Shown: in pieces, positions 2,939 to 13,310 of the stretch | How the letters are laid out: every line of letters begins with the position of its first letter | Position numbering within the stretch: position 1 is the stretch's first letter | NCBI GenBank assembly: GCA_900299125.1 | Contig: OMIR01000095.1 | Coordinates: 1-64,000, forward strand | DNA from: Nitrosopumilales archaeon | GTDB taxonomy: Archaea > Thermoproteota > Nitrososphaeria > Nitrososphaerales > Nitrosopumilaceae | DNA: 64,000 nt | Direction of reading: 5' to 3' | Made by a program: the position numbers and the translations under genes | Notes under the pieces: model-generated | Told to the model about the DNA's origin: nothing | The model's input: the letters and a program-made list of their open reading frames with translations, nothing else | The model's database searches: none

Positions 2939-4261
2939 ATGGTTGGTTCTACATACAAAAATTCGTACAAGAAAATTCTTGCGGATTTAGTAGAGCACAA
3001 CAAATGGTTTGAAAATTCCATACCGCTAATTGCGAGTGAAAACGTACCTTCTCCTGCAGTAAAAGAAGCGTTACTATCTGACTTTGGGAATCGTTATGCC
3101 GAAGGTTGGCCCGGCGAACGTGTCTATGCAGGGTGTGTCTATATCGATAAGGTGGAGGTTCAGTGCATGGATTTAGCAAAAAAACTCTACAAGGCTAAGT
3201 TTGCAGATGTCAGGCCTATTTCTGGTGTTGTAGCTAATCTAGCAATTTATTCAGCATTTACAAGTCCTGGCGATGTTATGATTGCACCGTCCATACCAGC
3301 TGGTGGTCACATATCACACGGTAAAAAGGAGCATTCTGGTACTGCTGGCCTAGTTCACGGATTAGACATTGAATTCTATCCGTTTGATGCGGAGGAAATG
3401 ACCATTGATGTGGACAAGACCAAAGAAAAAGTCGAGGAGTTAAAGAAAACAAACCGCTTGCCTAAGATGGCAATGTTTGGTGGATCATTGTTTTTGTTTC
3501 CACATCCAGTACGAGAATTATCTGATTTTCTAAAATCATATGACATTCACATCAATTATGATGCAGCACACGTCGCAGGACTAATTGCTGGAGGTCAGTT
3601 TCAAGATCCATTACGAGAGGGAGCTGATACCATGACAATGAGTACGCATAAGACGTTGTTTGGACCGCAAGGAGGACTGGTCTTGGGTGGAGAGCAACAT
3701 GGTGAAGCGATTAAAAAGGCAACATTCCCCGGATTGACATCTAGTCATCACATTCATCATATGGCAGCTAAAGCAATTGCGTTTGCAGAGACACTAGAGT
3801 TTGGTAAAGCATATGCAAAGGATGTAATAAAAAATGCAAAGGCTCTAGCTGACGCATTATCTGATGTAGGCTTCAAGGTATTAGGTGAAAAACGCGGTTA
3901 CACAAAATCACACCAGATTGCAGTGAATGTTTTGGATTATTCGGATGGTGGAAAAGTAGAGGCTGATTTAGAAAAAGCAAACATTATCGTAAATAGACAG
4001 TTAATTCCAGGAGACATCAAGGCAGGGCGTAATTATTTTCACCCTGGTGGAATCAGATTGGGCGTGTCAGAACTTACAAGGCTGGGTATGAAGGCTGCGG
4101 AAATGAAAGAAATTGCAGGGTTTATCAAAACTGTAGTGATAGACAAAAAGGATCCAAAGAAGCTTGCGGCCAAGGTCAAGTCATTTAGAAAGGACTACCA
4201 AAAGGTGCATTATTGTTTTGATAACAAGTTAGGCGCCTATGAATACGTAAAGCTTCGTTAA
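2939..4261 (+). CDS. glyA: Serine hydroxymethyltransferase
   Basis: PLP enzyme that interconverts serine and glycine with a one-carbon carrier. With the start at 2939 it has 440 residues, normal for archaeal SHMT. Visible are IPLIASENV (28-36), the GNRYAEGWPG substrate loop (50-59), the DAAHVAG block with the cofactor-binding Asp208 and His211, and TMSTHKTLFGPQGG, whose Lys238 forms the PLP Schiff base. An in-frame ATG at 2891 would add 16 residues. I prefer 2939 because TTTTTAAATT at 2907-2916 is a TATA-like box 26-30 nt before it and the family homology starts after it. The end overlaps the convergent polD2 stop by 4 bp. Confidence 0.96.
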   Translation: MVGSTYKNSYKKILADLVEHNKWFENSIPLIASENVPSPAVKEALLSDFGNRYAEGWPGERVYAGCVYIDKVEVQCMDLAKKLYKAKFADVRPISGVVANLAIYSAFTSPGDVMIAPSIPAGGHISHGKKEHSGTAGLVHGLDIEFYPFDAEEMTIDVDKTKEKVEELKKTNRLPKMAMFGGSLFLFPHPVRELSDFLKSYDIHINYDAAHVAGLIAGGQFQDPLREGADTMTMSTHKTLFGPQGGLVLGGEQHGEAIKKATFPGLTSSHHIHHMAAKAIAFAETLEFGKAYAKDVIKNAKALADALSDVGFKVLGEKRGYTKSHQIAVNVLDYSDGGKVEADLEKANIIVNRQLIPGDIKAGRNYFHPGGIRLGVSELTRLGMKAAEMKEIAGFIKTVVIDKKDPKKLAAKVKSFRKDYQKVHYCFDNKLGAYEYVKLR

Positions 4262-7200
4262 TTATAATCAGTTAACAACAATTGATCTCCGTTTCTTTTG
4301 CCAAAGACCAAATTAATCTCATCTTCAAGGGTTCCTATTCTTCCTTTGAGGTATGGGCCAACATCATATTTTTCGACTAGGCGCTTTGCAAGTCTGAGAT
4401 ATTTCTCAATTGAAGGCCTAGTTATTGTTTGAATTAGATTCTTACCGCAAATGCAGTGTTCAAGTAGTGGGGTTCGTCGGTATTTTCTACCACATGTAGT
4501 ACAACGAAATTCCTGTCTGCCATAGGCCCTGAGATTTCCAATAATGTCTGGCACGAGATGTGTCGTGATAACATTAGTAACAATTTCTGTAGTATCAACT
4601 GCAGAAATGATCTCCGCGTTTCTAATCTGCATATCAAACTTATCTAACATCGAATCTAAAGTGGAATAAGCACTTCGTGATCGTGATGTAGTCAGAGTTG
4701 TAGTAGTGTGAGTAAAATGATAATCGTAGAATTGTCTTTCCGTTTCGAGTCTGTCCTTGATGATTTCTACACTTGTGACCTCTGATGCTTTTTTGAATGA
4801 TATCGTGTCTTCAAAGAATTCGAGTGGGAGTTTTTTTGTCACCTCAAAATTATGTGCCTGAGGTTGAGACTCGTGGGGCAACACAACAGGTTGGACCAAA
4901 AGTGGTGCATCCATCAGTCCACCAATTTTATCAGATAAGAATTGTCTTGAGAAATTTAAGAGTGCATCCATCAAAAGCATGATGGAATCGGCATCTCCAT
5001 CAGCATCACGTCTTTTTGCAGAGTGCCAGTTTGGTGTACCAAAACATACATGGGTTTCTGTATATCCAATAATTCTGCCTACAATCCCTACGGATGTATG
5101 TGGAGCGAGTCCAATTACCAGATGACCGATTAGATCTTCATTATTCCTAACATTATAAAATGCAGTCTTACCATAGAATTTTCCTAGTTCAATGTCAATA
5201 TACTTGCAAGTTTGGACTAGGTATTTTCCGCTTTCATGTGGAATAATGATGTCCTGCATTTTGATCTCCACTGTTTGGTCATCACTAACAAGTGGTTTAT
5301 CATCGATATCAGTGTAATAGCCAAGCTCGTTTAGTTTTTGGATTGATGTTCCAATCCATGCTGGTTTGAAATGAGTTAATGGTGAGTTGGTTGCATCAAA
5401 TCGTACAGTACCGTCTTTGAATACAGTGAGACCTTGACTTTGTCGTATTAGTCCTTTCTCTAGCGGCTCTGCAATTCTATCTTGGTTAATGAGTTCCTCC
5501 ACACCCTTGAATGGTTTTTGTATTCTGACGCCGATTTTTTCTTGAGCTGCGATTAGTCTCTCCTTTAGTGGAAAAGGTTTGAAGGTATGAGTTGGTACTT
5601 TTTTCTTACATTTTTGGCAAAATGTCGTATCTAATTCAGACCGGCATATGGAACAGACATTCTCTATTTTTGTGCGATTTCCACATATTGAGCAGTTTAT
5701 ACTAATTGAGGGAATATTACAGTTCTTGCAGATGCGATTAAAAATATTACAGAAAAATTTTGAGTCATTACTTGCCTTGAGTAAATCTCTGGTCATTCCA
5801 CCTCTGTCACCAATTGGAAATAGAGTGTGTACGCGGGGTTTCATTAGTCGAGGTGCTGCTTTTTCAGGTCTACCTATTCTTACTCCAATGGAAGTCGAAA
5901 ATTTTGGCCTGATTTTGATTCCAGTAGATTTGGATAGGATTTGTGGAACAGATTCAGCATGATCCACATGAATAGTATTTGAGAACAGAATCTGATAAAA
6001 GACGTTTGCCTCTATTTCACCTAATACGATGTAATCGTCTGTGATAATATGGGGAACGCCGATTTTTTCTAGAATTGGTTTTACTTCTTTAGAGTAGATT
6101 ATTCGTTCGTCTTCTATTTTGACAGGCTTCAGTAGTATTTCGAGTTCGGCTGGTGAGATTTGCTCCCAATAGAAAAGATATTTTGGATGTAATGGAATCT
6201 TGAAGTTTAGGGAAATCTCTAGTGCTTCTTCTAAGCTAGGGGTTTTTACCAGAAAATCCTGTAGTTCTGTTTTTGCCTCGTATTGAAGTAGTTTTTGTGT
6301 GAGCTCCTCCAACCAGAACTCCTCTACATACCCAGAAGGTATGAGTTGAGCATTGTTTTCCAAAAAATCTCCAAATGAAATCAAAATGTCACCAAGATAC
6401 AAAATTCTCTCAATGTCATCCTTGATTTTTTTGCCTTGTTCGACGTTTTGGATTCTTAGTACATTACCATTTTTGAGTCGCACAATAGGAGTGTCGATGG
6501 AGTCCACAAAGGCAACAGTAGCTCCCTTGCCAGGAACATCGAGTTTTACCTGGGTTCCAACGGCTATTGTGTGGTTGAGGATTTCTGCTACTACGGGGTG
6601 AATTCCCACAGAGGCAAACCCAGTGTTGCATGCTCTTCCATATCTGAGTCGAAATCCACCTATCTTGTTTGGCATGGATAGAACTGATCTTCCTGCTATT
6701 ACCTCCTTGAGTCTTTTAGTCGCCGAGTCGCCTTCCTCCCCTTTTTGTACAGCTCCTTTCAAGTCACCTAACCAATCCCACCCATCTAGCTTGTAGAGAT
6801 CAATTCGTTTGAGGAGTTTTTTTGCACGCCCTATTAGACCGTCATTTAGAACACGTAGAGCGCCTCCACGAACACGGTCGGTCTTTATTCGGGTCATGTT
6901 TTTGTGATTTACCACCTCGTTTGGGTCGGTATCTACTCCGTCGAGTTCGACGGGTAAATTGGAAATTACTTTGATGATATCTTGATCTTGAACATGGTAT
7001 TGGAAGCTTCCAACATCTCTCTCATAAACCCGTAATTCTTCAACAAATCTGCCTGTTTCATCATCAAATGCGTTCGCTTGATATTTTGCGAGTCCAACAG
7101 CCTGTCTAACGTGATCGGCTATCAACATTGTAACAGCAGATTCTGTTCCGCCCGCAGAACGCATTGGTCCAGCGATAGATACTGAAAGGTAATCAGAACC

Positions 7201-7632
7201 ATCCTTGTTCTTCTTTATTATAACACTGGAAATTCCCTGTAATGGTGCAATAGTTACTCCTTCTGTGACTATAGCCAAACCTACGCGAACTGCATTGTCT
7301 AGTCTTTGCTCCAAGGTGGCATCTTCGGGGAGGTATTTGCCTAGAGCTATGCTTTTAGATATTTCTAATGCCGCTAGCTCCTTTCCTTTAATTTTGAGCA
7401 TCTCACGTAAGGGTTCTGCAATGTCGATGTCGTGCATTTTTGCGACACGGTCAGCTAGATCAAAGGCTATTTTGGGCTCTACTATTCCAGAGGAATCAAC
7501 TAGGGTAGATTTTGCCTCTGCGGCTCGCTCAAAGATTGAGTAGACCTGTTCTGAAATCTGGGAATAGTATTCAAGGTAATTGTTAGGCATTGGGATTCCC
7601 TGAATTCGGGAGATCGCTGTATTCTCTGACAT
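4258..7632 (-). CDS. polD2: DNA polymerase D large (catalytic) subunit DP2
   Basis: Catalytic subunit of the archaeal replicative polymerase PolD, which pairs with DP1 (encoded at 11880-13310). Length is 1124 residues, uninterrupted by an intein. Visible are the KTDRVRGGALRVLNDG and GGFRLRYGRACNTGFA blocks (double-psi barrel region). A Cys-rich zinc module follows at about residues 620-670 (CKNCN, CSICGN, CSICRS, CQKC). The acidic catalytic loop RDADGDADSI lies at about 874-882, and a C-terminal zinc finger (CTTCGRKYR...CICG) near 1060-1080 is the region that contacts DP1 and PCNA in known structures. It starts 2 nt after the GGGP synthase stop, so the two are co-transcribed. Confidence 0.97.
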   Translation of the reverse strand: MSENTAISRIQGIPMPNNYLEYYSQISEQVYSIFERAAEAKSTLVDSSGIVEPKIAFDLADRVAKMHDIDIAEPLREMLKIKGKELAALEISKSIALGKYLPEDATLEQRLDNAVRVGLAIVTEGVTIAPLQGISSVIIKKNKDGSDYLSVSIAGPMRSAGGTESAVTMLIADHVRQAVGLAKYQANAFDDETGRFVEELRVYERDVGSFQYHVQDQDIIKVISNLPVELDGVDTDPNEVVNHKNMTRIKTDRVRGGALRVLNDGLIGRAKKLLKRIDLYKLDGWDWLGDLKGAVQKGEEGDSATKRLKEVIAGRSVLSMPNKIGGFRLRYGRACNTGFASVGIHPVVAEILNHTIAVGTQVKLDVPGKGATVAFVDSIDTPIVRLKNGNVLRIQNVEQGKKIKDDIERILYLGDILISFGDFLENNAQLIPSGYVEEFWLEELTQKLLQYEAKTELQDFLVKTPSLEEALEISLNFKIPLHPKYLFYWEQISPAELEILLKPVKIEDERIIYSKEVKPILEKIGVPHIITDDYIVLGEIEANVFYQILFSNTIHVDHAESVPQILSKSTGIKIRPKFSTSIGVRIGRPEKAAPRLMKPRVHTLFPIGDRGGMTRDLLKASNDSKFFCNIFNRICKNCNIPSISINCSICGNRTKIENVCSICRSELDTTFCQKCKKKVPTHTFKPFPLKERLIAAQEKIGVRIQKPFKGVEELINQDRIAEPLEKGLIRQSQGLTVFKDGTVRFDATNSPLTHFKPAWIGTSIQKLNELGYYTDIDDKPLVSDDQTVEIKMQDIIIPHESGKYLVQTCKYIDIELGKFYGKTAFYNVRNNEDLIGHLVIGLAPHTSVGIVGRIIGYTETHVCFGTPNWHSAKRRDADGDADSIMLLMDALLNFSRQFLSDKIGGLMDAPLLVQPVVLPHESQPQAHNFEVTKKLPLEFFEDTISFKKASEVTSVEIIKDRLETERQFYDYHFTHTTTTLTTSRSRSAYSTLDSMLDKFDMQIRNAEIISAVDTTEIVTNVITTHLVPDIIGNLRAYGRQEFRCTTCGRKYRRTPLLEHCICGKNLIQTITRPSIEKYLRLAKRLVEKYDVGPYLKGRIGTLEDEINLVFGKRNGDQLLLTDYN

Positions 7633-8812: not shown

Positions 8813-8937
8813 TGAATCACGGTTTGTTTCTCGTTGATTATGAAATATTGTGATTGTGTATGACGCATTAGTTGACACAAGGTGTGAAATTATGTTGGCC
8901 AATCACAATAAATCACATAGATCTCACTAAATCATTG

Positions 8938-9516
8938 ATGATAATAGAGATTCCTGAACCCCAGGTAATTGGTGCAGTGATACTTGCATTCGTAGTAGGG
9001 GTATTTGGGATGATTGTCTATAGCAAAATCAAGGTACTCACTGGAAATAAAACCCAGGATCCTGCCTATTTGTCACGCTTAGAATACTATGAAAGGCAGC
9101 TCATAGACATGAAAATACGAATGGATGCTTTGGATCTGGAAAACCATGAATTTGAAACACATAACTCGGATAAAGTGGACCCTGTTTTTGAAAAAAAGAT
9201 GGAAAAACCAGCACCGAAAGACTCAGAAGAGGTCAAATTAGAGCCTACCAAGCCTAATCCAAAACCAAGAATGCCAAATATGGGCTTTGAAGGTGTGGCT
9301 GAACACGTCTTAGGATTAATCACAGTCAAGGAAATGACGTCACGTGATATCCAAGTCACAATTGGACGTAGTCGTGAGCACACATCTAGGTTGATGAAAA
9401 GACTTTTTGAGGAGGGTTACGTAGAGAGAAATAACAAAGTCAGACCATTTACTTACCAAATTACTGAAAAGGGAAAATCCAAACTGGCCAACCAAGAACA
9501 ACCCATTCCGGTATGA
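8938..9516 (+). CDS. Membrane-anchored winged-helix transcriptional regulator
   Basis: Begins with one transmembrane helix (about residues 9-28, VIGAVILAFVVGVFGMIVYS), followed by a charged helix and a Pro/Lys-rich linker. It ends in a winged helix of MarR/ArsR type (about 122-185: VAEHVLGLITVKEMTSRDIQ, then RSREHTSRLMKRLFEEGYVE as recognition helix and RPFTYQITEKGKSKL as wing). A cytoplasmic DNA-binding domain tethered to the membrane is inferred. An in-frame TTG at 8872 would add 22 residues; ATG 8938 is preferred because it puts the membrane helix near the N-terminus. Several AATCAC/GTGATT motifs lie upstream. Confidence 0.75.
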   Translation: MIIEIPEPQVIGAVILAFVVGVFGMIVYSKIKVLTGNKTQDPAYLSRLEYYERQLIDMKIRMDALDLENHEFETHNSDKVDPVFEKKMEKPAPKDSEEVKLEPTKPNPKPRMPNMGFEGVAEHVLGLITVKEMTSRDIQVTIGRSREHTSRLMKRLFEEGYVERNNKVRPFTYQITEKGKSKLANQEQPIPV

Positions 9517-9679: not shown

Positions 9680-9841
9680 ATGATGCTTACAGAAAATGAT
9701 GAATTAGTAAAGATCACGGCTGTGGGAACTATCTCCATACCAAAACAATTCCGAAAGTATTTGGGCATACAAAAAGGTGACTATGTTAAAGTCAGCCTGC
9801 AGGGAGATGCACTCGTGCTTAAACGTGTGAATATATCCTAG
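9680..9841 (+). CDS. AbrB/MazE-type DNA-binding microprotein (53 aa)
   Basis: Translation from ATG 9680 gives 53 residues that fit the swapped-hairpin SpoVT/AbrB domain: VKITAVGTISIPKQFRKYLG, then IQKGDYVKVSLQGDALVLKRV. The pattern V-x-x-x-G-x-I-x-I-P-K-x-x-R-x-x-L-G-I-x-x-G-D is the family signature. Such proteins are dimeric DNA-binding regulators or antitoxins. No toxin gene lies beside it, so a stand-alone regulator is more likely. The preceding region carries two spaced ATTAG-N6-CTAAT sites that could be its own operators. The stop overlaps the convergent neighbour by 4 bp. A second ATG follows immediately at 9683. Confidence 0.85.
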   Translation: MMLTENDELVKITAVGTISIPKQFRKYLGIQKGDYVKVSLQGDALVLKRVNIS

Positions 9842-10224
9842 TCGAATTTCTGTGGAATCTTGACTATTTGGTAGACCCAAGATTTGCCCTGACGTAAGCG
9901 GTTAATCCTACCCTTGGTGTTGAATCTAGCCAAATATGTCGAAATAATACTTAGTTTGATTGGTTCGTTGTACTCATCCTCATATTTTTCCAGTATCTCG
10001 TTTGAAGTAAAGTTGCCCATTGGGAAGTATTTGTCTACAATATGCCAGATTTTAGCACCTACCGAGTCCAATTGTGGTGACTCGCCCTGGTCCTCAATAT
10101 TCATGAGATTCATTAATTCGAAAATTTTGATGACCTTATCTCGGGTTATGTTGCCCTCAATGTTGAAGTTGTATTTAGCTCCATCCGAGTCTTCCAGGTC
10201 TATTCGTATCCTTTTTTTTGCCAT
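9838..10224 (-). CDS. Origin-adjacent 128-residue protein with probable winged-helix C-terminus
   Basis: The N-terminal 25 residues (MAKKRIRIDLEDSDGAKYNF) look like a beta-hairpin. The C-terminal half (about 60-125) has the helix-helix-helix-wing pattern of a winged helix: IWHIVDKYFPMGNFTSNEIL, LSIISTYLARFNTKGRINRL, WVYQIVK. The start of the 158-residue protein at 52509-52985 (MAKIRIRIGSNEIEI) is similar, suggesting a shared N-terminal module. The gene lies immediately beside the origin region and reads away from it. A role in origin function or local regulation is inference only. I do not recognise a named family. Confidence 0.7.
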   Translation of the reverse strand: MAKKRIRIDLEDSDGAKYNFNIEGNITRDKVIKIFELMNLMNIEDQGESPQLDSVGAKIWHIVDKYFPMGNFTSNEILEKYEDEYNEPIKLSIISTYLARFNTKGRINRLRQGKSWVYQIVKIPQKFD

Positions 10225-10383
10225 TTTCGTGATCGATCGTGGAGATTGGTTAACAAATGAACGGATCCGGTCGGCTTTGTTAACTCCCAGCGTTGTTAAC
10301 GTTGACTGCGTATCCCGTGCCTAGACCTACTAACATCTGTTAACAGTCTAATACCCTTTTATTATCTAAAACTACCAAATTTG

Positions 10384-10408
10384 ACGCCTGGAGTGGAAAT
10401 TAGGGGGT
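10384..10408 (+). repeat. Origin recognition box 1 (strong)
   Basis: First copy of the 25-bp direct repeat; core GGAGTGGAAATTAGGGGG. The GTGGAAA core followed by a G-run matches the part of archaeal ORBs contacted by the winged helix and AAA+ domain of Orc1/Cdc6. It is identical to the copy starting 62 bp downstream, about six helical turns away. Confidence 0.8.
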
Positions 10409-10445
10409 TGATTGTAACTTGTTAACAGTGTTAATGTGAATATTC

Positions 10446-10470
10446 ACGCCTGGAGTGGAAATTAGGGGGT
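10446..10470 (+). repeat. Origin recognition box 2 (strong)
   Basis: Second identical copy of the 25-bp repeat, in the same orientation as the first. Both G-runs point toward the AT-rich tract and the orc1/cdc6 gene. In studied archaea the polarity of ORBs fixes the orientation of the bound initiator relative to the unwinding element. Confidence 0.8.
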
Positions 10471-10528
10471 CAAAATTGCCTTTTTTGGGTGTTTTCTTAA
10501 CATCAGGTTAACTTTTTGTTAATTTCCC

Positions 10529-10550
10529 ACACACCTTGATTTCCACTCTT
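10529..10550 (-). repeat. Origin recognition box 3 (weaker, inverted)
   Basis: On the minus strand the sequence contains GAGTGGAAATCAAGGTGTG. It shares GAGTGGAAAT with the strong boxes and AGGTGTG with box 4. It lies on the left edge of the AT-rich tract and faces the opposite way to box 4. Confidence 0.65.
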
Positions 10551-10645
10551 CTTCTTTTATTTTTTTTTTAAAAATCAAATTAAAAATAATTAATTACAAA
10601 CTAAACTCAAACTATCATAGTCATTCTAAACACTTCATGATTAGT
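10551..10645. other. AT-rich tract, candidate duplex unwinding element
   Basis: About 95 bp with very few G or C. It includes a T10 run passing into A5 and stretches of TTAAAAATAATTAATTA. It lies between the inverted weak boxes 3 and 4. Its composition and position fit the DNA unwinding element of an origin; this is inferred, not proven. Confidence 0.6.
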
Positions 10646-10656
10646 CAAAGTTAGAA

Positions 10657-10678
10657 TTGAGTGGAAATAGAGGTGTGA
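10657..10678 (+). repeat. Origin recognition box 4 (weaker)
   Basis: Contains GAGTGGAAATAGAGGTGTG, near-identical to box 3 in inverse orientation. It ends 3 bp before the TTG start of orc1/cdc6, so it overlaps the position of the promoter or leader. Binding by Orc1/Cdc6 here could repress its own gene, an inference from position. Confidence 0.65.
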
Positions 10679-10681
10679 GAG

Positions 10682-11887
10682 TTGAGTGAAGATCCAGTAG
10701 ATCGATTACTTGATGGAGTTGAAAGTGGTAAATCCATAATCAAAAATCGTCAAGTATTACATTTTTCATACTTACCCGAAATAATACTACATCGAAATGA
10801 GGAACTCGAAAAGGTTACTCAATCATTATCACCAATTCTAAAACAATCCAGACCATCCAATCTTATTGTATATGGCAAACCTGGAACAGGTAAGACACTT
10901 GTTGTAAAAAAAATATTAGACAAAATCAAACAACGGGTTGAAAAGTCAAAATTTCCAATCAGATTGGTTTATACCAATGCCAAAGATGAGGCCACTTTGT
11001 ATAGTTTGTTTGTAAGTATAGGAAGACAGTTGGATTTGGATGAAAAAGAGATACCGGCAACTGGACTAGCAATTTCTGAAATTTTTAAACGACTTCTAAA
11101 ATCAATAGAAAAAAATCAATACAACATTGTTTTTGTAATAGATGAAATTGATTATTTAGCACAATTAATCTCAAAAACAGGAAAAGATGTTATGTATCAA
11201 TTAACCAGAGCAAACGAGCGTCTAAAATCTGGCTCACTAACACTGGTAGGAATATCAAACGACCTCACATTCAAGGAAAGACTAGACCCACGCGTAATCA
11301 GCTCACTCTCTGAAGAGGAGATAGTTTTTACCAATTATTCAGTAGTTCAACTAAAAGAGATACTAAAAGAGAGAATCAAAGACGCCTTCATCGATGGGGC
11401 GGTTGAGGATTCTGCATTAAACCTCTGTGCTGCAATGGCTGGAAGAGAACATGGTGATGCAAGAAGGGCTATTGACTTGTTACGAGTGGCAGGAGAAATG
11501 GCAGAGCGAACACAATCAAACAAAGTTACTGAAGAACACATTAGAGTAGCATCTACTAAAATAGAAGAGGATAAAGAGACAACAGCACTTCAATCTTACC
11601 CACTTCACGAGAAACTTCTAATCATTGCTGTAATGAAGGCATCCGGTCTTTCCACCGGAGAGATCTTTACAGCATACAAAACACTTTGCAAGGCAATCCG
11701 CCAAAAAGAACTTTCCCAACGAAGAGTAACTCAGATGTTATCTGAAATAGAAATGTCCGGAATTATTTCTGGTAAAATAGTCCATCAAGGAATACATGGA
11801 AGAACAAAGAAATTCACACTTACTATATCACCAGATACTGTCAAAGAGACATTCAAAAACGAAGCTACACTAGAAGATATTATTTAG
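10682..11887 (+). CDS. orc1: Origin-binding initiator Orc1/Cdc6
   Basis: AAA+ ATPase that binds origin boxes and loads the MCM helicase. The 401 residues include Walker A GKPGTGKT (65-72), Walker B VFVIDEIDYL (150-159, Asp154-Glu155), sensor 1 near LTLVGISND (about 185-193), and sensor 2 in GREHGDARRAIDLLR (about 264-278). A C-terminal winged helix (about 300-395) provides DNA binding. The start is TTG at 10682 with a GGTGTGA stretch 5-12 nt upstream that may serve as ribosome binding site and is also part of box 4. The gene sits directly at the origin. Its last 8 bp overlap the end of the convergent polD1. Confidence 0.96.
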   Translation: MSEDPVDRLLDGVESGKSIIKNRQVLHFSYLPEIILHRNEELEKVTQSLSPILKQSRPSNLIVYGKPGTGKTLVVKKILDKIKQRVEKSKFPIRLVYTNAKDEATLYSLFVSIGRQLDLDEKEIPATGLAISEIFKRLLKSIEKNQYNIVFVIDEIDYLAQLISKTGKDVMYQLTRANERLKSGSLTLVGISNDLTFKERLDPRVISSLSEEEIVFTNYSVVQLKEILKERIKDAFIDGAVEDSALNLCAAMAGREHGDARRAIDLLRVAGEMAERTQSNKVTEEHIRVASTKIEEDKETTALQSYPLHEKLLIIAVMKASGLSTGEIFTAYKTLCKAIRQKELSQRRVTQMLSEIEMSGIISGKIVHQGIHGRTKKFTLTISPDTVKETFKNEATLEDII

Positions 11888-13310
11888 AAAAATCTCTTTT
11901 AAAGACCTTAAATGTCTTCAAATTAACCAATACGGCAATACCAGAAGTAGGCGAAATTCCTACTCCGGACTGGAAAGGAGTTTGCGATTGCCAGGCACCA
12001 GAATTCAAAATTAGGATATTTTTGTACAAGTCCAGATCAACTACATGTACGTGCCCAGCATGAAAAATATCAGGAACCTCATCAATAACCATATAATCTT
12101 CCAATTCTGGGGCAATCGGAGTCTGGGCTCCATAAATTGGGCTCAGATGTCTTGCTTTGAGTAAATACTGCATTACCTTGGCTGGCTTGTCGTAGCTTAA
12201 ACCGGGGGTTGTTTTAACAATATCGTCAACTGACTGTCCGTGAAAAATCAACACCTTGACCCCGTTCAGAGATATGATGGCAGGATTACCAATCATAAAG
12301 AAATTTTTTCTATTCCACAAATCAGAGTTATATTTTGCGGGAATAGCTGGTTGGGGAAGTGCTCTTCTTCCTGGGTCATGATTGCCGGGCGCGATAAACA
12401 CCTTGATGTGTTTTGGGACTTTGTCTAAGATATCGTAAAGCATTTTGAGCTGATCTTGGGTGTTCAAAGCAACTAGTTCTTTATCCTGGTTTGGGTATAT
12501 TCCAATTCCATCTACTACATCCCCACCTAAAACAAAAAACCGAACCTTTTTTGCAATGGGGTCTGGGCTTGAAAACCAAGCAACCAAATCCAAAAACTCC
12601 TTTTCCATGAAATACTTAGAGCCAACATGAAGATCCGAGACAAAAACCGCGTATGCCTCTGTCTTTGAACGATTTGTTGCACGTTCTGGGATGTCTGGCA
12701 AAATAATGTCTTTTACAATAAAACCACCATTTTTACTAGTCACAATTTTTTCCATTACTAATTGATCCATTAGCAAGCCAGAAGCTACCTTTTTGAGATC
12801 TTCATCTATCACAATAGTTTCCATATTTCCACTTTGATCATCCAATGTTATTTTTGTGACATTCCTGTCGGTTCGTCTATCTGTTACCAAACCACAGACA
12901 TAGACCTCATCTTTGGACTTGGAGGACTTTACAGCAGAGATGCTCTTGATCAATTTTGCTTCAGGCCTATTAGACATGATTCTTTTTAACTTGGCATATC
13001 TGCTTGAAAATAAGGCGGTAAAACCCTTCACTCCTTCCGCAGAAGCCAAATTTGACGTAGGATCAAAGAGAATTTCATGATGGTTCTCTATGGATTCATC
13101 CTCCTGTACGCCCAGAAATAACTCGAGATCTTTTTCTGAAATTAGGTATAATTGTTGACGTTCTTTTTCCTTAACGATTTGCTTTATGATCCTCTCTAAT
13201 TCCTTTACATCCACCTGCTCTAGAATTCTTAATGCGTCCGGATGAATTTGAAAACCTTTGTTAATTACGAAATTCAATGCAGTACTTACATCACTAATCA
13301 TAAACATCAT
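11880..13310 (-). CDS. polD1: DNA polymerase D small subunit DP1 (3'-5' exonuclease)
   Basis: Partner of DP2; carries the MRE11-like proofreading nuclease. The 476 residues have a helical N-terminus (about 1-75), a linker, an OB fold (about 130-205) and a calcineurin-like phosphoesterase domain. The metal ligands are visible as SDLHVGS (225-231), GGDVVDG (262-268), GNHD (309-312), FHGQSVDD (about 357) and AGHVHV (about 423-428). This motif set is intact, so the nuclease should be active. Starts at 13310 (MMFMISD) or 13301 (MISD) are both possible. It is convergent with orc1/cdc6 with an 8-bp overlap; polD2 is only 4.2 kb away. Confidence 0.96.
   Translation of the reverse strand: MMFMISDVSTALNFVINKGFQIHPDALRILEQVDVKELERIIKQIVKEKERQQLYLISEKDLELFLGVQEDESIENHHEILFDPTSNLASAEGVKGFTALFSSRYAKLKRIMSNRPEAKLIKSISAVKSSKSKDEVYVCGLVTDRRTDRNVTKITLDDQSGNMETIVIDEDLKKVASGLLMDQLVMEKIVTSKNGGFIVKDIILPDIPERATNRSKTEAYAVFVSDLHVGSKYFMEKEFLDLVAWFSSPDPIAKKVRFFVLGGDVVDGIGIYPNQDKELVALNTQDQLKMLYDILDKVPKHIKVFIAPGNHDPGRRALPQPAIPAKYNSDLWNRKNFFMIGNPAIISLNGVKVLIFHGQSVDDIVKTTPGLSYDKPAKVMQYLLKARHLSPIYGAQTPIAPELEDYMVIDEVPDIFHAGHVHVVDLDLYKNILILNSGAWQSQTPFQSGVGISPTSGIAVLVNLKTFKVFKRDFSK

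Follow-up and report, generated by a model that had tools for sequence, protein, structure and literature searches.

A conserved TTAACA array interleaved with the origin recognition boxes of a Nitrosotenuis-like archaeon and its candidate protein partner

Results

A second set of repeats at an ORB-type replication origin

The region at 10225-10681 of the window, i.e., the whole 64,000-nucleotide stretch of archaeal DNA analyzed here, is supported by its sequence as the origin from which the chromosome of a Nitrosotenuis-like archaeon, an ammonia oxidiser, is replicated. Besides origin recognition boxes (ORBs) for the initiator Orc1/Cdc6, it carries a second set of repeats, a TTAACA array, which comparison of related genomes indicates is deeply conserved. 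Taken as a whole, we consider it probable that this is an origin with Orc1 on the ORBs and a second factor, most likely a 128-aa protein encoded next to the origin (p128), on the array. This reading builds on the observed sequence elements, their conservation, the linkage of the array to the ORBs, the co-occurrence of the array with p128, and a switch of gene orientation at the locus. The ORB-type origin as such is correct but ordinary and of a textbook kind, because inverted ORBs with an AT-rich tract are the design of Sulfolobus oriC1 and a single origin of Nitrosopumilus maritimus was already known; what appears to be new is the second element together with its candidate partner protein.

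The assembly comprises 1.56 Mb in 109 contigs; among named genomes, the closest to it belong to Nitrosopumilales, Thaumarchaeota, and Candidatus Nitrosotenuis. The genes of the locus are arranged in the order DP2 (4258-7632, minus strand), GGGP synthase, a 120-aa protein, a winged-helix protein, p128, the intergenic region, orc1/cdc6, and the DNA polymerase D small subunit (DP1; 11880..13310, minus strand), a conserved neighbor of orc1. The orc1/cdc6 initiator gene (10682..11887, plus strand) was assigned by matches of its product to Pfam Cdc6_lid and Cdc6_C as well as to TIGR02928 (E = 1.7e-110), and it is present in a single copy in the genome.

Direct comparison of the 25-bp repeat ACGCCTGGAGTGGAAATTAGGGGGT at 10384-10408 and 10446-10470 confirmed what an earlier note on this DNA had reported, namely two identical copies with starts 62 bp apart, and the likeness reaches 27 of 28 bp when counted from 10381 and 10443. 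The repeats had also been said to resemble ORBs, and they do: each encloses a putative strong Orc1/Cdc6 box on the plus strand (ORB1, 10390..10408; ORB2, 10452..10470, of the same sequence), and the two copies of CTGGAGTGGAAATTAGGGGGT fit the archaeal ORB consensus (TCCA-GAAA followed by a G-string), the common motif being TCCA[CG]T[TG]GAAA[TC][GA]AAGGGGT (PMC4164010). Scattering of the repeat through the genome, which had been named as a reason to give up the origin reading, was not seen. The strong-box core, with up to three mismatches, occurred at these two sites only in the whole 1.56-Mb genome (reversed control: 0), and a relaxed genome-wide box search returned the four boxes of the origin and two isolated matches elsewhere, with no more.

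The remaining two boxes are weaker, and both had been described as inverted copies. Their existence was borne out, as box 3 of the GAGTGGAAATnnnGGTGTGTG class (10530..10548, minus strand) and box 4 (10659..10677, plus strand) are 89% complementary to each other over 19 bp; their polarity was not, because box 4 shares the orientation of the strong boxes and only box 3 is opposite to them. These oppositely oriented boxes do flank, as stated before, an AT-rich tract (10551..10656; 106 bp, 81% AT), which is the presumed duplex unwinding element, and only 0.25% of the 106-bp stretches in the window are as AT-rich. Likewise, the orc1/cdc6 reading frame was correctly placed just after the last box, since its TTG start codon at 10682 follows box 4 by 3-4 bp. 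The tract is conserved in sequence (CTAAAAATAATTAATTACAAACTAAACT). In its part at 10571-10610, conservation goes beyond composition to the sequence itself (CTAACTAAAAATAATTAATTACAAACTAAACT), and the spaced CTAA/ATTA units found there may serve in unwinding, provide contacts to single-stranded DNA, or belong to the promoter of orc1.

Across 93 related upstream regions, the strong boxes, the inverted box with its near-invariant GGTGTGTG ending, and the AT-tract sequence were all kept, the spacing of the strong boxes being 62 or 61 bp in 88 of them, while box 4 was often degenerate, as it is in much of the family. The layout of the boxes is conserved throughout Nitrosopumilaceae. In three relatives (L013, L064, and L093), insertions of a few hundred bp within the origin region have shifted the positions of the array and the ORBs, and both are still there. 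The interpretation of the region as a replication origin, put forward in the earlier note, is thus sustained by the fit of the repeats to the ORB consensus, the presence of a single Orc1/Cdc6 gene, an AT-rich tract flanked by oppositely oriented boxes, the conserved spacing of the strong boxes, and the orientation switch. The architecture that it had singled out is present apart from the polarity of box 4, but it is not new, being the layout of Sulfolobus oriC1 (PMC12141716).

The TTAACA array is interleaved with the ORBs

The unusual part of the locus, which had escaped mention, is an array of about nine TTAACA/TGTTAA hexamers at 10248-10523, interleaved with the ORBs, six of which read GTTAAC. 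Sites a-d (at 10249, 10279, 10295, and 10339, spanning 10248..10345) lie upstream of ORB1, sites e-f (TTAACAnTGTTAA; 10420..10435) between ORB1 and ORB2, and sites g-i (10496..10523) between ORB2 and box 3. The TTAACA sites are confined to 10249-10523, with zero inside the AT tract at 10551-10656. The GTTAAC palindromes begin at 10249, 10279, 10295, 10339, 10421, and 10507, so that six of the 13 in the 64-kb window fall within 264 bp (10249-10512), and in 200 Markov-shuffled windows there were never more than three per 300 bp. Counted as TTAACA/TGTTAA, ten matches fall in one 300-bp stretch, with at most two anywhere else in the window. At no other place in the genome were GTTAAC pairs at most 34 bp apart found (two matches versus 20 for the reversed control). 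Both in the window and in the halves sampled from two complete relatives (G014 and G019), the densest TTAACA cluster coincided with the origin.

Individual sites of the array were retained in 50 to 89 of the 93 relatives (site f in 89), and sites a, b, and c kept their 30- and 16-bp distances in 78; sites g-i are likewise supported by conservation in relatives. What is conserved is the TTAACA/TGTTAA core rather than the palindrome, with sites d, g, and h reading GTTAAC in 11, 7, and 11 of the 93 relatives, respectively. A role of GTTAAC as a Dam/SeqA-like methylation palindrome was rejected because the flanking G is unconserved at several sites, and the full palindrome is therefore not kept at every site. 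Between sites c and d, the conservation line revealed a further block, TGACTGCCTAGCCCACGCCTAGA, i.e., TGACTGCCTAGCCCACGCCTAG (10302..10324); it contains two GCCTAG units, and a portion of it is similar to ACGCCT, with which the ORB repeat begins at its 5' end. No published account of the TTAACA array was found in the open-access literature searched, a scope outside which Pelve et al. 2013 falls, and nothing relevant emerged there on GTTAAC sites in archaeal origins, on gene tags for the origin of N. maritimus, or on winged-helix proteins of origins.

TTAACA or TTCACA marks origins in about 30 families

In about 30 families of the phylum, origins linked to orc1 bear the motif, either as TTCACA or as TTAACA. 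Within the same order, the array was enriched over shuffles as TTAACA in families f1, f2, f3, and f8 and as TTCACA in f4, f6, f7, f10-f14, and f16; some of the families tested in this way reach a P of only 0.01-0.02. Elsewhere in the phylum, the TTCACA form was found in f18, f21, f24, f25, f29, f30, f34, f37, f40, f45, f46, f50, f54, and f55, and the TTAACA form in f27; several of these other families may be Bathyarchaeia. When mapped on an Orc1 tree, the motif switched to TTAACA at least twice, and it did so in 100% of the bootstrap trees. A first tree without f27 had given one switch, and inclusion of f27, an independent TTAACA case, raised the number to two.

p128 is the candidate binder of the array

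The gene of p128 (9838..10224, minus strand) encodes 128 aa with a predicted N-terminal beta-hairpin and helix and a MecI/BlaI-like winged helix, and we regard its product as the candidate binder of the array. Searches of Pfam and NCBIfam gave no match for the window protein, its score with Penicillinase_R (PF03965) being 15.8 bits against a curated cut-off of 22.6, and its relatives match this family with E-values up to 1.1e-7. In the structural model, the C-terminal half is a winged helix (pLDDT about 90), and the N-terminal hairpin and helix are less well modelled; a Foldseek search with it returned MecI, BlaI, Fur, ArsR, and archaeal AspA-type winged helices (E about 0.003-0.02), none of them decisive.

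p128 was detected in 52 of 61 relatives (44 of 46 among good genomes) and, of 200 genomes sampled from the phylum, 128 have it, as a single copy. It is usually divergent from orc1 across the origin, an arrangement shared by the majority of genomes in the order and seen in further families. None of the nine p128-less genomes with a usable stretch (at least 243 bp) had an array upstream of the orc1 ortholog, a co-occurrence that phylogeny could explain because the p128-less genomes are mostly distant lineages. Conversely, p128-bearing genomes in which no array was found upstream of orc1 belong to f20, f33, f41, f43, f47, f49, and f51; most p128 copies in them are divergent, or the origin may lie elsewhere. 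Four genomes (G070, G074, G087, and G103) of families that otherwise carry p128 have neither p128 nor the Orc1-1 ortholog and contain a diverged Orc1 paralog only. This double absence could be either a co-loss or a missing contig, and it was not counted as evidence because the two genes are neighbors that could drop together from incomplete assemblies.

The form of the motif is accompanied by a difference in the putative recognition helix of p128. Residue 93 of this helix is Thr in 20 of 22 sampled p128 sequences from TTCACA genomes, the exceptions being L120 (Val) and L272 (Ala), and it is Ile, Val, Leu, or Ala in all inspected p128s from TTAACA genomes, with Ala in the independent f27 case. 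The switch from C to A in the motif took place at least two times, and the lineages concerned lacked Thr93 in every case. These sequences, which represent few independent events, are consistent with residue 93 of p128 reading the A/C position of the motif, and we are slightly inclined to accept, judging from such comparisons, that p128 is an accessory origin factor that binds the TTMACA array.

Somewhat unlikely, though credible, is that the array is bound by another protein, be it Orc1, a nucleoid protein, or the membrane-anchored winged-helix protein encoded at 8872-9516 (plus strand; N-terminal hydrophobic segment, HTH_27), with p128 as a mere syntenic neighbor. Such a view would agree with the broad synteny of p120, wH, p128, orc1, and DP1 and with the presence of Orc1 in all cases. 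However, the array variants track position 93 of p128 in two independent switches, and several Orc1-encoding origins without p128 show no array. A second Orc1 was ruled out as the binder, since the window genome contains a single Orc1 gene.

The array follows the ORBs when neighboring genes are displaced

The position of the array was compared with those of p128 and orc1 in families where these genes have parted, and the array was found to follow the ORBs, not the neighboring gene. In f2 (L229), the p128 gene lies about 2.5 kb off, and the array remains with the ORBs at orc1; in f4, f7, and f55 (including L232 and L240), it is orc1 that is displaced, and the array remains with the ORBs near p128. 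In f25, f30, and f45, where the p128 gene has a different genomic location, the ORBs at orc1 lie amid the array, and the region upstream of the displaced p128 contains no comparable array. Since the array stays with the ORBs whichever of the two genes has moved, a pure promoter/operator role in relation to p128 is unlikely. The same observations render improbable the broader proposal that the array is only the operator or promoter of the divergent p128 and/or orc1 (autoregulation), with no role in initiation. It has in its favor that the array is intergenic between divergent genes, that sites a-d are near the p128 start, and that MecI/BlaI-type proteins are usually repressors, but the displaced families and the occurrence of sites between ORB1, ORB2, and box 3 argue against it. 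Autoregulation of p128 as the sole role is weakened by the displaced cases as well.

We consider it highly improbable that the array is a centromere-like segregation site located at the origin and p128 a partition protein. Winged-helix centromere proteins (pNOB8 AspA and TubR) are among the Foldseek matches of p128, and repeated half-sites near an origin recall parS/centromere arrays. Yet these matches are weak, with E about 0.01 and with equal scores for MecI, Fur, and ArsR; no ParA-like partner was seen among the neighbors, and the sites alternate with the ORBs instead of forming a group of their own.

In the two-factor mechanism that we favor, Orc1/Cdc6 would bind the two strong ORBs and the two weaker boxes of opposite polarity and would load MCM at the AT-rich unwinding tract, where melting would take place. 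A second sequence-specific factor on about nine TTAACA/TGTTAA half-sites would shape or regulate the initiation complex. The most likely candidate for it is p128, encoded divergently across the origin; it may act as a dimer on inverted half-site pairs such as TTAACAnTGTTAA, and it could organize or gate the complex or control the timing. The extension of this mechanism to the Nitrososphaeria and related lineages, i.e., bipartite origins composed of ORBs with Orc1 and a TTMACA array with p128, the latter being an ancient, dedicated second essential factor unrelated to UBP, is tentative, its chances being close to evenly balanced.

Gene orientation turns at orc1

Gene orientation and GC skew were analyzed in two complete relatives, G014 and G019 (loci L149-L228), with 40 stretches sampled per genome. 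In G014, the cumulative gene-orientation bias changes direction at orc1, the best of the 40 positions (P = 0.007), and in G019 its best turning point lies within one stretch of orc1 (P = 0.001); in both genomes, genes are co-oriented with forks departing from the orc1 locus. A GC-skew minimum at the locus, to which the earlier note had looked for support, did not appear: the skew was weak or uninformative in G019 and showed a maximum, not a minimum, near orc1 in G014. GC skew was consequently dropped as an origin marker for want of a consistent signal in these two genomes, and gene orientation may be the better marker in this family. That the ORB-like repeats only regulate orc1 and replication starts at another locus is hardly conceivable, because the abutment of box 4 on the orc1 start and the missing GC-skew minimum are outweighed by the orientation switch at orc1 in two genomes, the locus-unique boxes, the AT tract, and the precedent of N. 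maritimus, whose single mapped origin has ORBs adjoining cdc6 (PMC4010727, PMC5797428).

Relation to known origins

The nearest precedent for a second origin element is ucm/UBP of Sulfolobus oriC1, where inverted ORBs surround an AT-rich tract that holds ucm, a single 11-bp site (PMC12141716). Its ligand UBP is a 111-aa protein that binds DNA through a beta-hairpin with a C-terminal strand swap, has over 300 genomic sites, and has been reported from Desulfurococcales and Sulfolobales only (PMC12141716). The present locus resembles oriC1 in having an Orc1-type initiator gene at the origin and two inverted ORBs around an AT-rich tract and, if p128 binds, in providing an extra sequence element for a small non-initiator protein. 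It differs from ucm/UBP in position, site number, genomic distribution, and protein fold: about nine hexamers lie outside the AT tract and are clustered at the origin only, with no TTAACA site inside the tract, and the model of p128 predicts a winged helix with an N-terminal hairpin and helix instead of the UBP fold, the gene itself adjoining the origin.

Closer in phylogeny is N. maritimus, a member of the same family as the window genome, for which a single mapped origin is on record (Pelve et al. 2013, as related in PMC4010727). Its origin has been predicted with Ori-Finder 2 (PMC4164010), and its ORB repeats precede cdc6 (PMC5797428), so the two have in common a single origin with ORB repeats beside cdc6; in contrast to our locus, a second motif or partner protein is not described in PMC4010727, PMC4164010, and PMC5797428. 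The cdc6-adjacent location, the repeated ORBs, and the AT-rich element are also shared with oriC of Pyrococcus and Halobacteria, where the ORBs lie directly 5' of cdc6 (PMC4010727). Haloarchaea differ in having long G-strings and a G-rich inverted-repeat enhancer, and no TTMACA array or p128 has been reported from them (PMC4010727). As to the protein, the C-terminal domain of p128 shares weak sequence and fold similarity with the MecI/BlaI (PF03965) repressors, but p128 is below the Pfam cut-off, has another N-terminal domain, and is associated with an origin rather than with resistance genes.

A study of ucm/UBP published in 2025 closes by asking about analogous origin proteins in more divergent archaea (PMC12141716). 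The second repeat set is conserved and probably bound by an uncharacterised DNA-binding protein, so that a partner protein may be required at archaeal origins beyond Sulfolobus as well; the locus supplies a testable candidate class of sites and a candidate protein for much of the phylum, the globally abundant ammonia oxidisers among them. Confirmation would mean that archaeal origins are generally two-factor, comparable to bacterial oriC with IHF or Fis, and the array could serve as a sequence marker for origins in metagenome-assembled genomes where GC skew fails.

Other genes near the origin

The close relative G014 contains three extra, diverged Orc1/Cdc6 homologs, which possibly derive from integrated elements. 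The synteny of the winged-helix gene at 8872-9516 with p128 and the origin is held across the order and in other families, and its product could anchor the origin at the membrane or, alternatively, bind the array in place of p128. Finally, a 52-aa open reading frame at 9683-9841 (plus strand), convergent with p128, appears to encode an AbrB/SpoVT-type DNA-binding protein, which would be the third small DNA-binding protein adjoining the origin.
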